DNA from: a virus
Reading direction: 5' to 3' (one strand)
Length of the DNA: 28,245 nucleotides
IMG/VR virus record: IMGVR_UViG_3300030333_004324
Span: 1-28,245 of that record
Every line of letters begins with the position of its first letter. Position 1 is the stretch's first letter. Below, piece after piece: positions 369 through 19,549 of this stretch. The translations under genes and the position numbers were made by a program. The notes under the pieces were generated by a model. The model saw nothing but the letters and a program-made list of their open reading frames with translations. It was not told the DNA's origin and searched no databases.

Positions 369-710
369 ATGGAAAAAAACAGATGTAAATCAAAGGCTTA
401 CAAACCTTTACCAGACTTTTTAATGATTGGTCCTTCTGACATAGATGGTGCTGGTATTTTAGCTAAAGAAGATATTCCTGCTGAGGTAGATCTAGGAATA
501 AGTCATATTTATGATTCTAACTTTCAGCATGATTATATAAGAACTCCGCTTGGTGGATTTATAAATCATTCAGATAATCCTAACTGTGAACTGATTGATG
601 ATTCTGATGATACCTATAAGAGGCTAAAGACAATTAAGAAGATAGAACAAGGTGAAGAACTTACTCTTAAGTATTCTTTGTATGAGATATGTGATTACTT
701 AGACAAGTAA
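369..710 (+). CDS. Small SET-domain protein (putative protein lysine methyltransferase)
   Basis: This 113-residue protein covers little more than a minimal SET fold. The SET hallmarks are visible in order: an N-terminal G-x-G-I-L-A-K-E-D-I segment (residues about 27-36), the knot motif INHSDNPNCEL (about 65-75; NHS-xx-PN is the S-adenosylmethionine-binding signature), and GEELTLKYSLY near residues 95-105, which matches the GEELTxxY end of the domain. Known SET enzymes transfer methyl groups from SAM to protein lysines. Here the substrate is unknown; a host or virion protein is possible. The last 44 bases overlap tail to tail with the glycosyltransferase gene on the other strand. SET proteins of this size occur in some bacteria, phages and giant viruses, so activity is plausible but unproven. 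Confidence 0.8.
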   Translation: MEKNRCKSKAYKPLPDFLMIGPSDIDGAGILAKEDIPAEVDLGISHIYDSNFQHDYIRTPLGGFINHSDNPNCELIDDSDDTYKRLKTIKKIEQGEELTLKYSLYEICDYLDK

Positions 711-5497: not shown

Positions 5498-5782
5498 ATG
5501 GCAAAAGAATTAAATGAAGATACAAGTTTTAAGGTAAGTGTAAAAACTCTTATAGGTATTGCGTTTGCCATAGCAACCGTTGTAGGTATGTGGTTTGCAC
5601 TACAAGCTGATATAGAAGAGGCAAAAGAACTTCCAGTTCCTCCTCCACCAGATGTAACTAGAATGGAGTATGATATGAAAGATCAGCTTATTAGACAAAC
5701 TATTCAAACTACTGCTGATGATGTTACTGAGATAAAAGAAGATATAAAAAGGTTAGAAGAAAAAATAGATAAACTAAGATGA
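5498..5782 (+). CDS. Membrane-anchored coiled-coil protein (spanin/holin-accessory-like)
   Basis: In this 94-residue protein a polar N terminus is followed by one membrane span (about residues 15-35: TLIGIAFAIATVVGMWFALQ), a proline hinge (ELPVPPPPDV) and a long charged coiled coil to the end (EIKEDIKRLEEKIDKL). This N-anchored coiled-coil topology resembles inner-membrane spanins and other phage lysis accessory proteins, but also simple structural anchors. The gene is the opposite arrangement to 4252-4491, so the two could pair through their coils. Its stop overlaps the next start by four bases (ATGA at 5779-5782), which suggests coupled translation. No catalytic motif is present. Confidence 0.75.
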   Translation: MAKELNEDTSFKVSVKTLIGIAFAIATVVGMWFALQADIEEAKELPVPPPPDVTRMEYDMKDQLIRQTIQTTADDVTEIKEDIKRLEEKIDKLR

Positions 5783-6105
5783 AAAAATTATTATCTATAT
5801 TATTTATTTTTTTAAGTCTAACTAGTTTTGGTCAAGTTACTGTTGCATATTATAATGCAGAATGGAATAAAGCTAATTCTGTAGAGTGGATAGATAAATT
5901 AAAAGATTGTGATATTACTAAAGTTGATATTGTTAAACAACCAAAGTTACAACAGAAACATCAGATAGTTGTTGTACCAACTATTATAATTTTTCTTGAC
6001 GGAGAAGAAGTTAAGAGATACCAAGCTGATGTATCATTTACAATGAAAGCTACAAGAGAAGAGGTGCAAGAAAAAATAGAAGAAATAATAATGGATAATT
6101 TTTAA
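5779..6105 (+). CDS. Exported thioredoxin-fold protein lacking the CxxC cysteines
   Basis: This 108-residue protein has a clear Sec signal peptide (MKKLLSILFIFLSLTSFGQ), likely cleaved after Gln19. The mature part follows the thioredoxin pattern: a first strand VTVAYYNAEW, then helix, strand, VVVPT cis-Pro loop at residues 64-68, and IIIFLDGEEVKRYQA. Where thioredoxins have WCxxC this protein has W29-N30-K31-A32-N33, so both active-site cysteines are Asn. It cannot do dithiol chemistry and may instead act as a binding or scaffold protein in the periplasm. It sits just before a glycosyltransferase and the T9SS-tagged repeat protein. One cysteine (Cys44) remains elsewhere. Compare the normal cytoplasmic thioredoxin at 1580-1894. 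Confidence 0.8.
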   Translation: MKKLLSILFIFLSLTSFGQVTVAYYNAEWNKANSVEWIDKLKDCDITKVDIVKQPKLQQKHQIVVVPTIIIFLDGEEVKRYQADVSFTMKATREEVQEKIEEIIMDNF

Positions 6106-6788: not shown

Positions 6789-9700
6789 ATGAAAAAACTA
6801 TTATTAATATTATTTGTATTGATGTCACATACAGTGATGTCACAAAACAGTTGGGTAAACTTTAAAGTACAGTTTGATTTTTATGCACCGCAAGAATCTA
6901 ACTTTTTTATGGTTAATGATAGCACAGGACAACAACAGTTCTTTTATCAACCAACAGTTGCATATGAATATTTAGATACTACAATAATTCTTCAATCAGG
7001 TTCTTATACAGTACAACTAAATGATACATATGGAGACGGTTGGATTTCACAAAATCCTGCTTCATTTACAATGGAGAATGCATGTCAGGGCAATATAATT
7101 AATTGGAACCCTGTATTAGGATCATTCTACCAAAGAGATACTACAGTAAATATATTACCTTGTCCTCCACCAACAGGAGGATGTTTAGATTCAATAGCTA
7201 CTAACTATAATCCAAGTGCAGCTTTTGATGACGGTTCTTGTATCTATCCTCCATGTGCAGGCTTAGATACTTTTTACGTTATAAATTATTGTGACGGAGC
7301 ACAAAATAAAGTTCATTATAAATGGACTAATATGCCTAATCCTAACTGTAGGATGTTGGCTTATACTAGAACAACAGATATAAATACACTAGGTAATACT
7401 TGGTATAACTATCCTGCAAATTTTTCTAATACTGGTTTAGTTTATAGTAATAACCAAAATAATACAACATACTATTTTTTAGGTATGCTTGCTGATTCAA
7501 GCTTGACAGATACTTTAGTTGTAACAACACTAGAATGTATCCCTGGATGTACAGATCCTCTTGCTTTGAACTACAATCCTTGGGCTAATTCTGATGATGG
7601 TTCATGTCAGATGCCTCCTGCAAACTGTGCATCTGGGGAATCTAATATAGTAGTATCAATAATGCCGGATACATATCCAGGAGAAACATCATGGGAAATA
7701 GCAGATACAACAGGAACTGTATTAGCTACATCACCAGCTTATTCTATACCTGGTGTACCAGTAATTACTGAAGTATGTATACCAGATGGTACAGTTATAG
7801 AGTTTACTTTATTTGATTCATTTGGAGATGGTTTATGTGGATCATGTTATGGTGGAGCTGACGGAGGAGCAGTAGTACAAACGTTATGTGGAGATACTAT
7901 AATGTCTATATTACCAGGTAATGCTAATTTTGGAGATGATACTTCTATTGTATATACAGTAGCGCCATGTGTACCTAATATTATATATGGATGTACTACA
8001 CCAGGATTTACAGAATATAATCCTCAAGCTACAGTAGATGATTCTTCATGTGCAACACCTGTTATATTAGGTTGTACAGACCCAACATCACCTGATTATG
8101 ATCCTATAGCAAACACAATGCAAATTGTACCGCAATGTCAATATACATTAGTAATTACAGATGAAGCTGAAGATGGATGGTATGGAGCATGGGTAGGTAT
8201 ATTACAAGATACAACAGTACTAGGACCGTTTATGATGGGACCTAATGATGGTTACTCAGAAGAATTTACTATTAGTTTAAATGCATTTAGTCCTGTAGAG
8301 TTAATGTTTTTTGCTCCAGGTAATTCAGCAACAACTGCAAATCAATGTGGATTCTTTTTAATAGGACCTGAAGGTGATACTACATTAGCAGGAGGAACTA
8401 ACCCTTGGACAGATCCTATGTTACAGTTTCCTTATAGATATAGTAACATCCCTTACTGTGGTAATATATGTACACCAGGTATAGTAGGTTGTATGGATTC
8501 TACAGCATTAAATTATTTAGACTCTGCAAATATGCCAGGTCCTTGTATACCAGTAATACTAGGATGTACAAACCCTTTAGCATTTAACTATAACCCAATA
8601 GCTAATGTTGATGACTCAAGTTGTTTACCAATTATTATTGGGTGTATGGATAGCACAGCATTTAACTTTAATCCGTCTGCTAATACAAATGATTCATCAT
8701 CATGTATACCTGTAATCTATGGGTGTATGGATGATACTATGTTTAACTATAATGCTGCCGCTAATACTGATGACGGATCATGTATACCAGTAATCTTTGG
8801 TTGTACTGATGCTTTGGCATTCAATTATGATTCATTAGCAAATACAAATAACAACTCATGTATTCCATTTATATATGGTTGTACAAATCCGTCTGCTATA
8901 AATTATGATCCGTTAGCAAATACAGATGACTCAACATGTATTGGGATTATCTATGGTTGTACTGATCCAACAATGTTTAACTATGATCCACAAGCAAATA
9001 CTGATAATGGATCATGTGAACCTTTTGTATACGGTTGTATGGATTCAACAATGTTTAATTACAACCCTCTTGCAAATACTTCAGATAATAATTGTATACC
9101 TTATATATACGGATGTATAGATCCTACTGCTATTAATTACTGTGATTCTTGTAATACTGATGATTTCAGTTGTATACTTCCTATATATGGATGTACAGAC
9201 AGTACAATGTTTAACTATAACCCTTTAGCCAATGTTGACAATAATACTTGTGTTCCTTTTATTTTTGGTTGCACTGATCCTTCTGCCCTTAACTACAATC
9301 CCCAAGCCAATACAGAAGATTTTAGTTGTATTGATTATATCTATGGTTGTACTGATAGCTCTGCTCTTAACTATGATCCGTTGGCTAACACTGACAATGG
9401 TTCGTGTATTGATGTGGTTGAAGGCTGCATGGACCAAACTGCGTGGAACTACGATCCTTTAGCAAATGTGGATGATCCTGCAGTTTGTTTATATGATGCA
9501 GGATGTATTACTGGTCCAGGTAATCCTTATTGGTTAAATGATGATTGTTACGCTTGGGTTATATCAGTAGATGACTACTGTTGTAATGTAGAGTGGGATG
9601 AGACATGCCAATTAACATATGATTATTGTGGAACTACATGGACTGGACCTGAACCACCAGCAAGAATTTCAGGAGAAATATTAATGTTCTATCCTAACCC

Positions 9701-9884
9701 AACACCAGGTGTTGTTAATATAAGTGAGACAGTAGATATTAAAGTGTATAATAACTTAGGAGAACTAGTAATAAATAAAAAACAAATTAATCAATTAGAT
9801 CTATCCAACCATGTAGATGGTGTATATCATATACATGTTACATACAATGGTAAATTAATTGAAAACAGAATAATAAAACAATAA
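6789..9884 (+). CDS. Secreted Cys-repeat protein with T9SS C-terminal sorting domain
   Basis: This 1031-residue protein has a Sec signal peptide (residues 1-19, ending MSQ). Three glycine/aspartate modules of the Bacteroidota type follow (YGDGW about 82, FGDGL about 345, EDGW about 461). There are 17 copies of a roughly 26-residue motif GC-x-D-x-x-A-x-NYNP-x-AN-x-DDGSC; four are dispersed and 13 are in tandem (residues 567-904). A Cys-rich stretch (about 905-955) precedes a C-terminal domain (about 963-1031: FYPNPTPG, IKVYNNLGELV, LDLSNHVDGVYHIHV) matching the type A T9SS sorting signal. Such proteins are exported and attached to the outer membrane or released by the Por machinery. Encoded inside a phage virion module, it may be displayed on the infected cell. 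The paired cysteines suggest disulfide-stabilised repeats. Confidence 0.9.
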   Translation: MKKLLLILFVLMSHTVMSQNSWVNFKVQFDFYAPQESNFFMVNDSTGQQQFFYQPTVAYEYLDTTIILQSGSYTVQLNDTYGDGWISQNPASFTMENACQGNIINWNPVLGSFYQRDTTVNILPCPPPTGGCLDSIATNYNPSAAFDDGSCIYPPCAGLDTFYVINYCDGAQNKVHYKWTNMPNPNCRMLAYTRTTDINTLGNTWYNYPANFSNTGLVYSNNQNNTTYYFLGMLADSSLTDTLVVTTLECIPGCTDPLALNYNPWANSDDGSCQMPPANCASGESNIVVSIMPDTYPGETSWEIADTTGTVLATSPAYSIPGVPVITEVCIPDGTVIEFTLFDSFGDGLCGSCYGGADGGAVVQTLCGDTIMSILPGNANFGDDTSIVYTVAPCVPNIIYGCTTPGFTEYNPQATVDDSSCATPVILGCTDPTSPDYDPIANTMQIVPQCQYTLVITDEAEDGWYGAWVGILQDTTVLGPFMMGPNDGYSEEFTISLNAFSPVELMFFAPGNSATTANQCGFFLIGPEGDTTLAGGTNPWTDPMLQFPYRYSNIPYCGNICTPGIVGCMDSTALNYLDSANMPGPCIPVILGCTNPLAFNYNPIANVDDSSCLPIIIGCMDSTAFNFNPSANTNDSSSCIPVIYGCMDDTMFNYNAAANTDDGSCIPVIFGCTDALAFNYDSLANTNNNSCIPFIYGCTNPSAINYDPLANTDDSTCIGIIYGCTDPTMFNYDPQANTDNGSCEPFVYGCMDSTMFNYNPLANTSDNNCIPYIYGCIDPTAINYCDSCNTDDFSCILPIYGCTDSTMFNYNPLANVDNNTCVPFIFGCTDPSALNYNPQANTEDFSCIDYIYGCTDSSALNYDPLANTDNGSCIDVVEGCMDQTAWNYDPLANVDDPAVCLYDAGCITGPGNPYWLNDDCYAWVISVDDYCCNVEWDETCQLTYDYCGTTWTGPEPPARISGEILMFYPNPTPGVVNISETVDIKVYNNLGELVINKKQINQLDLSNHVDGVYHIHVTYNGKLIENRIIKQ
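8487..9500 (+). repeat. Tandem array of 13 coding repeats of about 78 bp
   Basis: Thirteen head-to-tail units encode residues 567-904 of the T9SS-tagged protein. The block is 1014 bases, exactly 13 x 78, although individual units vary by a codon. Each unit keeps GC near its start, NY or NF before a D/N-P pair, the AN pair and a closing Cys, with a hydrophobic linker such as PVIY or PFIY. The DNA is well diverged between units, so the array is old rather than a recent expansion. Units 14-17 (counting the whole protein) use visibly more C at third positions than the earlier ones. Confidence 0.9.
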
Positions 9885-18577: not shown

Positions 18578-18736
18578 ATGCCAAAAAGAATGCAAGAAGC
18601 AGGTATGAACTACGGACACGGTGGTTCTAAACCAAAGAAGAAAAAAATGCCTTCTTACAAAAAAGGTGGTGAAAGATATTCTGGAACTCCTACATCATTA
18701 CCAGGAGGTTGTGGTGGTAAAAGAAAGAAGTATTAA
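18578..18736 (+). CDS. Small basic glycine-rich protein (52 aa)
   Basis: This is a 52-codon frame from an ATG four bases after the micropeptide stop, ending in TAATG shared with the next gene. The product is rich in Lys, Gly and Tyr (MPKRMQEAGMNYGHGGSKPK; PSYKKGGERYSG; GGCGGKRKKY) and looks disordered. It resembles the other tiny basic proteins at 16805-17729 in charge but not in sequence motif. It may bind nucleic acid or be a virion internal peptide. No family is recognised. Confidence 0.7.
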   Translation: MPKRMQEAGMNYGHGGSKPKKKKMPSYKKGGERYSGTPTSLPGGCGGKRKKY

Positions 18737-19128
18737 TGAGTATATTATCTAAAATATTTGCAGGTGGTGCAAGTGAGTTAGTTGACTCAGTTGGTGGTGT
18801 ACTTGATAATCTAACTACTACTAAAGAAGAGAAGTTAGAAGCAAAACAAAAACTGAAAGAGTTAGTTGCTAACTATGAGACCAAAATGGAACAAGAAATA
18901 AGTTCTAGATGGGAAGCAGACATGAAGTCTGATTCATGGTTATCTAAGAACGTTAGACCTATGGTCCTTATATTCTTAGTGATAAGCACTGTTCTTTTAA
19001 TATTTATAGATGCAGGCGCTATAAACTTTACAGTTGAGGCTAAATGGACTGACTTATTACAATTAGTATTAATCACGGTGATTGGAGCCTATTTTGGGGG
19101 AAGGTCATTAGAAAAAACAAAGAAATAA
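18736..19128 (+). CDS. Holin of the GTA 3TM type
   Basis: This 130-residue protein has an N-terminal amphipathic region (MSILSKIFAGGASELVDSVG) and a charged helix (TTTKEEKLEAKQKLKELVAN). Then comes the hallmark stretch ISSRWEADMKSDSWLSKNVR, leading into P-M-V-L and hydrophobic segments (about residues 75-93 and 103-120) and ending GAYFGGRSLEKTKK. The order W-x-x-D-x-x-SD-x-WLSKNVRP followed by spans matches the family called 'holin of 3TMs, for gene-transfer release' (PF11351). Such proteins form inner-membrane lesions at lysis. The lysis timing and the partner endolysin are not visible in this window. It overlaps the next start by one base. Confidence 0.8.
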   Translation: MSILSKIFAGGASELVDSVGGVLDNLTTTKEEKLEAKQKLKELVANYETKMEQEISSRWEADMKSDSWLSKNVRPMVLIFLVISTVLLIFIDAGAINFTVEAKWTDLLQLVLITVIGAYFGGRSLEKTKK

Positions 19129-19214
19129 TGGCACAATGTGTATGTGGTAAAACAAAAGCAGAGGACGGTTCATGTGATGGTTCTCACAAAGACAAATGTA
19201 CGTCTACAAAATAG
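19128..19214 (+). CDS. CDGSH-type iron-sulfur micropeptide (28 aa)
   Basis: An ATG at 19128 shares one base with the holin stop and opens 28 codons to TAG at 19214. The product is essentially one CDGSH motif: C4-V-C6-G-K-T9, then C16-D-G-S-H20 followed by KDKC. In mitoNEET and bacterial relatives, three Cys and one His in C-x-C-x2-(S/T)-x3-P-x-C-D-G-(S/A/T)-H hold a 2Fe-2S cluster. Here the spacing between C6 and C16 is one residue longer and the Pro is absent, so cluster binding is plausible, not certain. The family normally works as a dimer of about 70-residue chains, so this would be a minimal version. The last 19 bases overlap the nuclease gene in another frame. Confidence 0.65.
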   Translation: MAQCVCGKTKAEDGSCDGSHKDKCTSTK

Positions 19215-19549
19215 AGCTAATTAGGGTCATTGATGGGGATACCATTGATGCTTATATAGATCTAGGCTTTGATGTTAAAATAAAAAAAAGAATAAGGTTC
19301 ATGGGTATTAATACTCCTGAGTCAAGAACTAGAGACAAAGAAGAAAAGAAAAGAGGCCTTGCTGCAAAAGACAGAGTTAAGTGTTTGCTTGAAGCATGTG
19401 ATCATATAGAATTAAAATCACATGGAGTAGGTAAATACGGAAGATGTCTTGGAGAAATAAGCTTACCTATAGACGGTGAGCTATGTAGTTTAAATCAATT
19501 GTTAATTTCTGAAGGTCATGCAGTGGCATACTTTGGAGGAAAAAGATAA
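19196..19549 (+). CDS. Staphylococcal-nuclease-like (SNase) protein
   Basis: This 117-residue SNase fold starts with YKIELIRVIDGDTIDAYIDL. The calcium/catalytic pattern of staphylococcal nuclease is visible: D13 and D15 (DGDT), R34 and E42 in IRFMGINTPES, and R83 in GKYGRCLGEI, matching reference D19/D21, R35/E43 and R87. Reference calcium ligand D40 is Asn (N39) here, a change seen in some active relatives. There is no signal peptide, so it would act in the cytoplasm or in the virion. It follows the CDGSH peptide with a 19-base overlap. The role could be host DNA degradation or DNA processing; activity is inferred from residues only. Confidence 0.85.
   Translation: MYVYKIELIRVIDGDTIDAYIDLGFDVKIKKRIRFMGINTPESRTRDKEEKKRGLAAKDRVKCLLEACDHIELKSHGVGKYGRCLGEISLPIDGELCSLNQLLISEGHAVAYFGGKR

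Follow-up and report, generated by a model that had tools for sequence, protein, structure and literature searches.

CDGSH proteins and the window peptide

The closest described systems are the CISD or NEET proteins (PF09360), among them mitoNEET and MmCISD (3tbn, 3tbm), which comprise 50-80 or more amino acids and share the ligand set C-x-C...C-D-G-(S/T/A)-H. CISD types 1-7 were defined by Lin et al. in 2011, and the tested proteins of several types hold a [2Fe-2S] cluster (PMC3174974). Every known CISD structure uses an N-strand, a lid-proline, P11 and a beta-sandwich (PMC3174974). The cluster of mitoNEET is reduced by FMNH2 supplied by a flavin reductase (PMC9490426). Among viruses, GciS of Megavirinae is cited as a small Fe-S protein that is plentiful in the particles of these giant viruses (JACS 2023, cited in PMC12499515).

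The window analysed here, a stretch of 28,245 nt from an IMG/VR record of an uncultivated virus, contains a 28-codon gene with the ligands of this family, lodged between a holin and an SNase-type endonuclease (Table 1). An earlier, sequence-only reading had singled out this ORF, and re-reading the window returned the same ORF, the same translation and the same motif residues (C4, C6, C16, D17, G18, S19 and H20). The two overlaps described in that reading are also present: the A of the ATG at 19128 is the last base of the holin stop TAA (19126-19128), giving TAATG, and the 3' end of the gene overlaps the SNase ORF (ATG at 19196) by 19 nt, with both flanking genes confirmed by PHROGs and Pfam. 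The window contains a single match to the motif pattern, and 100 dinucleotide-preserving shuffles contain none. Common gene callers stop at 90 nt, and a 28-codon ORF with its stop occupies 87 nt. The peptide itself matched nothing in the family libraries (Pfam, PHROGs and others), even at E 10.

Table 1. Features of the window that bear on the micropeptide gene
Feature	Coordinates	Strand	Evidence or remark
Mini-CDGSH micropeptide gene, 28 codons, MAQCVCGKTKAEDGSCDGSHKDKCTSTK	19128..19214	+	motif, conservation, family
17-residue predicted metal-binding motif CVCGKTKAEDGSCDGSH (C-x-C-G-x-T-x4-G-x-C-D-G-S-H; Cys2-Cys3 gap of 9 residues)	19137..19187	+	
Holin	18736..19128	+	phrog_3427, E 1.7e-30; PF11351 GTA_holin_3TM, E 1.2e-5
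SNase-type endonuclease	19196..19549	+	phrog_452, E 4.9e-35; PF00565, E 2.9e-10
Alternative peptide site, empty in the window: junction of small membrane-protein-like ORF and thioredoxin-like ORF	5779..5782	+	
Small membrane-protein-like ORF	5498-5782	+	upstream flank of the empty alternative site
Thioredoxin-like ORF, signal-like start	5779-6105	+	PF00085, E 6.1e-6

The window peptide has the complete CISD ligand set and, as T9, the Ser/Thr that Lin et al. place at motif position 7. In contrast, the 17-residue CISD motif has eight residues between Cys2 and Cys3, whereas the window peptide and its family have nine, and Pro11 and the hydrophobic residues that precede Cys1 and Cys3 in CISD proteins give way to Q3 and G14-S15; the longer spacing and the missing proline before Cys3 had both been correctly recognized beforehand. 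With only three residues N-terminal of the motif and eight C-terminal, the peptide is devoid of the N-strand, the lid-proline P-motif and the beta-sandwich alike, and the mini-CDGSH peptides as a family mostly have 22-30 amino acids. The Pfam CDGSH model, at its cut-off of 29.5 bits, does not match the window peptide and scores other peptides with the nine-residue loop (9-loop peptides) at 11-17 bits. Comparison with classical CDGSH proteins by hhalign gives a probability of 92.8 and an E of 3.9e-7 over 23 columns with one gap. The top PDB profile matches are the CISD structures 3tbn and 3tbm, at an E of only 0.11-0.17, and AlphaFold2 returned a poor model (pLDDT 63, pTM 0.20) for a 30-residue family member (L237). 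Judged by its residues, the window peptide is a minimal variant CDGSH module, which would fall outside all seven types of Lin et al.

Two other systems invite comparison. With GciS the window peptide would share the character of a small, Cys-rich viral Fe-S protein, the metal centre of the window peptide being a prediction; GciS differs, as far as the citing account goes, in being glycine/cysteine-rich, in forming a unique family of its own that is not termed CDGSH there, and in belonging to giant viruses of eukaryotes. The SEC-C zinc motif, C-x-C-G-S-G-x-K-x-K-x-C-C/H, opens with the same C-x-C-G but is without the CDGSH end, and the mini-CDGSH family has no G-S-G after Cys2; identity with SEC-C was rejected.

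Conservation in related phages

Relatives were fetched via the nuclease and the holin, independently of the motif, yielding 160 loci (1.04 Mb). In three of these (L002, L003, L141) the holin gene is followed at once by the same peptide gene, again overlapping it as TAATG; the 1.04 Mb contained no further copy of the motif at any loop length used in the search. In L002 the junction between the peptide gene and the SNase gene is likewise TAATG. The reading frame is unbroken in all motif-bearing relatives examined, namely these three and L175, L265, L241, L289, L230, L197 and L262. Between the window and L002, the nearest of the three, the 17 motif codons differ by three synonymous and no nonsynonymous changes (P 0.01 for the pair), and pN/pS for the window together with ten relatives comes to 0.22, a value partly conditioned on the motif, by which eight of the ten were chosen. 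An intact frame and an excess of synonymous change were the checks proposed with the sequence-only reading, and both came out in favour of its claim of a genuine CDGSH-like micropeptide below the usual gene-calling length. The window ORF is a real, established gene.

A family of mini-CDGSH peptides in viruses

IMG/VR was scanned with a degenerate DNA pattern for C-x-C-G-x8-C-D-G-(S/T)-H, the counts being lower bounds. By inspection, at least about 116 of the 120 matches listed are genuine 9-loop loci. Two out-of-frame control patterns gave 11 and 1 matches, none with CDGSH and nine of the 11 in one unrelated gene, and a pattern with a 10-residue loop gave three. Although absent from the pattern, Thr or Ser occupies motif position 6 in all 87 distinct viral motifs among the matches listed, and Gly occupies position 11 in 84 of them. 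IMG/VR contigs may include host DNA; the holin, XkdF and WYL_2 contexts are those of phages.

Most viral 9-loop modules among the matches listed are standalone peptides of 22-45 amino acids. Others form tails on an XkdF-like head maturation protease (PF14550; L200 and at least seven others) or lie within larger proteins, of the WYL_2 (L176, L211) and HeH/SAP-like (L245, L275) kinds and of a 108-residue family (L189). A 96-residue phage protein (L271:3130-3420) joins an N-terminal, degenerate C-x-C-G...C-I-G-W-H to a C-terminal 9-loop CDGSH.

Other loop lengths are also represented in viruses. The canonical 8-residue loop occurs in at least 120 stretches, again chiefly as short peptides, and the 7-residue loop in 63, the majority genuine; the 7-loop peptides (L560-L622, for example L598 and L618; CGCGRSESGFCDGSH) include some XkdF tails. 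One carrier protein can bear different loops: XkdF tails have 7 or 9 residues, WYL_2 tails 8 or 9, and HeH-like proteins 9 or 10. Furthermore, an 80-residue protein from a gammaproteobacterial MAG (L310), a Pfam-positive CDGSH protein at 61.2 bits, has a 9-loop first motif, like that of the 9-loop peptides; unlike them, it also has sequence for strands at the N-terminus and a second motif, of the classical kind. The swapping of loop lengths on carriers, L310 and the profile comparison are the chief grounds for regarding the 9-loop peptides as CDGSH modules rather than look-alikes.

Classical 8-loop CDGSH heads are fused to phage 2OG-Fe(II) oxygenases (PF13640) in three cases (L426:6101-6940, L512:2756-3634 and L421:8635-9366). 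A neighbour family resembling these oxygenases lies near 50 of the 120 8-loop loci among the matches listed; the label of this largest neighbour cluster is based on the fusions and on appearance, and a 110-residue piece of its representative had no match in Pfam. In one phage group (L457, L429, L463 and others) the 8-loop peptide lies near an AhpC-type peroxiredoxin (PF00578) and also near a second conserved gene, of unassigned family.

Searches of 50,697 phage records by tblastn with two viral and one cellular 9-loop peptide returned nothing, and those with 8- and 7-loop peptides returned weak matches or none; one of the weak matches, an unannotated scaffold from faeces, carries an 8-loop motif of the classical form. 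A DNA search using part of the WYL_2 fusion gave no match. The 9-loop peptides are missed by Pfam, PHROGs and NCBIfam, and no description of phage CDGSH peptides was found in the open-licence literature, a result that is provisional in covering open papers only and that agrees, within these papers and libraries, with the earlier opinion that such a peptide is undescribed. The earlier reading needs correction here: the peptide is no isolated curiosity of a lysis cassette, its long spacing being the consensus of a large overlooked family that occurs in hundreds of uncultivated aquatic viruses and also in bacteria of several kinds. Just under the gene-calling length lie a large number of genes that the libraries tested leave unnamed.

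Cellular relatives

Among the cellular matches listed, the 9-loop pattern occurs in Flavobacteriales (MKINRPKCGCGNTQNPNGYCDGSHNNK and similar), Paenibacillus and Brevibacillus, as tandem copies in Opitutae, and in a 49-residue version in freshwater Actinobacteria; the peptides of marine Flavobacteriales, Paenibacillaceae and others have 24-30 amino acids. In the Polaribacter family 15 of the 299 genomes contain the pattern, in the Paenibacillus family 16 of the 59; the reversed pattern, used as a control, is absent from all 358. YceI is encoded directly upstream in 50 of the 85 cellular loci among the matches listed (median gap 5 nt), an NADPH-dependent FMN reductase directly downstream in 13 (gap 2 nt) and an HxlR regulator upstream in seven, with pirin following the FMN reductase in several loci. 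The order YceI - peptide - FMN reductase - pirin is frequent in marine Flavobacteriales; the Paenibacillus copies lie outside the YceI operon. The flavobacterial operon with its FMN reductase fits the reduction of mitoNEET by FMNH2 (PMC9490426).

The predicted metal centre

The preferred reading, which is given about an even chance of being correct, is that the window gene is a functional late phage gene, translationally coupled and moron-like, for a minimal CDGSH-type metal peptide acting as a small [2Fe-2S] carrier. Most likely, by analogy with mitoNEET, the cluster would be held by the loop's three Cys and single His, the peptide being the iron-sulfur loop alone, without the CISD beta-sandwich. 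It could then be a small, soluble carrier of single electrons or iron-sulfur clusters, sustaining redox or iron chemistry in the infected cell. Support for a redox or iron role comes from the YceI, FMN reductase, pirin, thioredoxin-like, 2OG-Fe(II) oxygenase and AhpC neighbours or fusions. On the other hand, a peptide without the CISD fold elements may, to judge from its sequence, fail to fold or to hold a cluster alone, and the immediate neighbours of the window peptide are a holin and a nuclease, with no redox genes.

The likeliest alternative is that the peptide binds zinc through its three Cys and one His, and is a structural clip or protein-protein tag and no iron-sulfur protein. Such a role would account for the C-terminal XkdF and WYL_2 tails and for the indifference to loop length; short tail or head fusions to several unrelated phage proteins, loops of anywhere from 7 to 10 residues and the want of a surrounding fold all point in this direction. 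It is nevertheless considered rather unlikely, in that Asp-Gly-(Ser/Thr) between Cys3 and His and Thr/Ser at motif position 6 are hallmark features of CDGSH proteins, [2Fe-2S] is present in the tested CISD proteins of several types (PMC3174974), and flavin reductases and peroxiredoxins are among the neighbours.

Were [2Fe-2S] bound, as the preferred reading has it, the minimal CDGSH unit would shrink to some 20 residues, and the 17-residue motif of the textbooks would be too strict. The peptide would give researchers a natural Fe-S module of very small size to study and to design with, aquatic phages would commonly carry Fe-S or iron-handling cargo, and the bacterial operon running from YceI to pirin would become concretely testable. 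A bolder proposal, and an improbable one, is that of an autonomous [2Fe-2S] protein of 22-30 residues, widespread among aquatic phages and various bacteria, with loops of 7-10 and no dimerisation fold, to which the membrane lysis proteins of phages are coupled so that the redox or pH state of the cluster influences the end of infection; an autonomous peptide of this kind would be among the smallest natural Fe-S proteins.

Phage neighbourhood and mobility

Among the 87 standalone-peptide loci listed, a holin or M15 endolysin lies no more than two genes away in 35 (40%), as against a background of 16% for the other genes on the same contigs, and the maximum in 2000 permutations was 24 loci, the loci being non-independent. 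Another small membrane protein is encoded directly upstream, usually overlapping, in 25 of the 87. This proximity is an association and no proof of a lysis-specific role. A lysis accessory, made together with the holin and modulating holin triggering by way of a labile cluster and its redox or pH state, would fit these figures; it would also fit the position of the ATG within the stop codon of the holin gene, seen in two groups of holins that are 45% identical over 78 residues. The idea is distinctly unlikely, however, given the non-independence of the loci, the cellular homologues and viral fusions that have no lysis partner, and a position that varies, both after the holin and among related phages.

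The slot after the window's holin is occupied by 18 gene families in 79 loci, and in three related records with a complete holin away from the peptide another gene follows the holin. In L241 and L289 a peptide gene 91-92% identical to that of the window is sited between homologues of the membrane-protein-like and thioredoxin-like ORFs (Table 1); the flanks of this site are 76-86% identical to the window, where there is no room for a peptide. In L230, L197 and L262 the peptide gene lies near a homologue of the same thioredoxin-like gene, which is thus beside or near the peptide in five related phages. Each of nine related records has one motif copy. Because there is one copy per related phage, at alternative sites, the gene moves, by recombination or transfer, and it would represent a very small moron, single in each genome and differently placed in related phages. 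A strict lysis-cassette gene was rejected, there being no fixed position. The earlier picture of a peptide beside lysis genes is therefore borne out in part: the proximity to holin and membrane genes exceeds the background, but the slot is variable and five phages carry the gene elsewhere. In a related phage (L096:2547-2612) this post-holin slot is filled by a 21-residue metallothionein-like micropeptide, MKCNCKECNCGTSCECTCCNC, whose start likewise lies in the holin stop (TAATG).

The tails on the XkdF-like head maturation protease, together with the abundance of GciS in giant-virus particles in the account cited above, raise the further idea that the virion receives iron, or some metal centre, by way of the peptide. 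This is quite improbable, since a head maturation protease need not remain in the particle and that of a relative, P12024L, has no tail. Finally, a chance ORF without a product, for which its shortness and the lack of a significant family-library match might speak, is scarcely credible and was rejected on conservation, considering the shuffles, the conserved frame, the synonymous excess, the family in viruses and cells, and the reversed pattern.

Host and other genes of the window

A Bacteroidota source of the phage peptide is plausible because similar peptides occur in the marine Flavobacteriales operon. Transfer would have run from host to phage, a direction that we infer, since 17 conserved residues carry too little phylogenetic signal. 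The window also encodes a 1031-residue protein (6789-9884, + strand) with a signal-like start and repeated GCTDPxAxNYNPxANxDDGSC units. Its C-terminus carries a sorting domain of type IX secretion (PF18962, E 3.2e-8), through which the phage product seems to be directed to the secretion system of its host; the domain suggests a Bacteroidota host, in keeping with the flavobacterial peptides. A small ORF at 369-710 (+ strand) is SET-domain-like by eye (GAGILAKEDIPAE...GGFINHSDNPNC).
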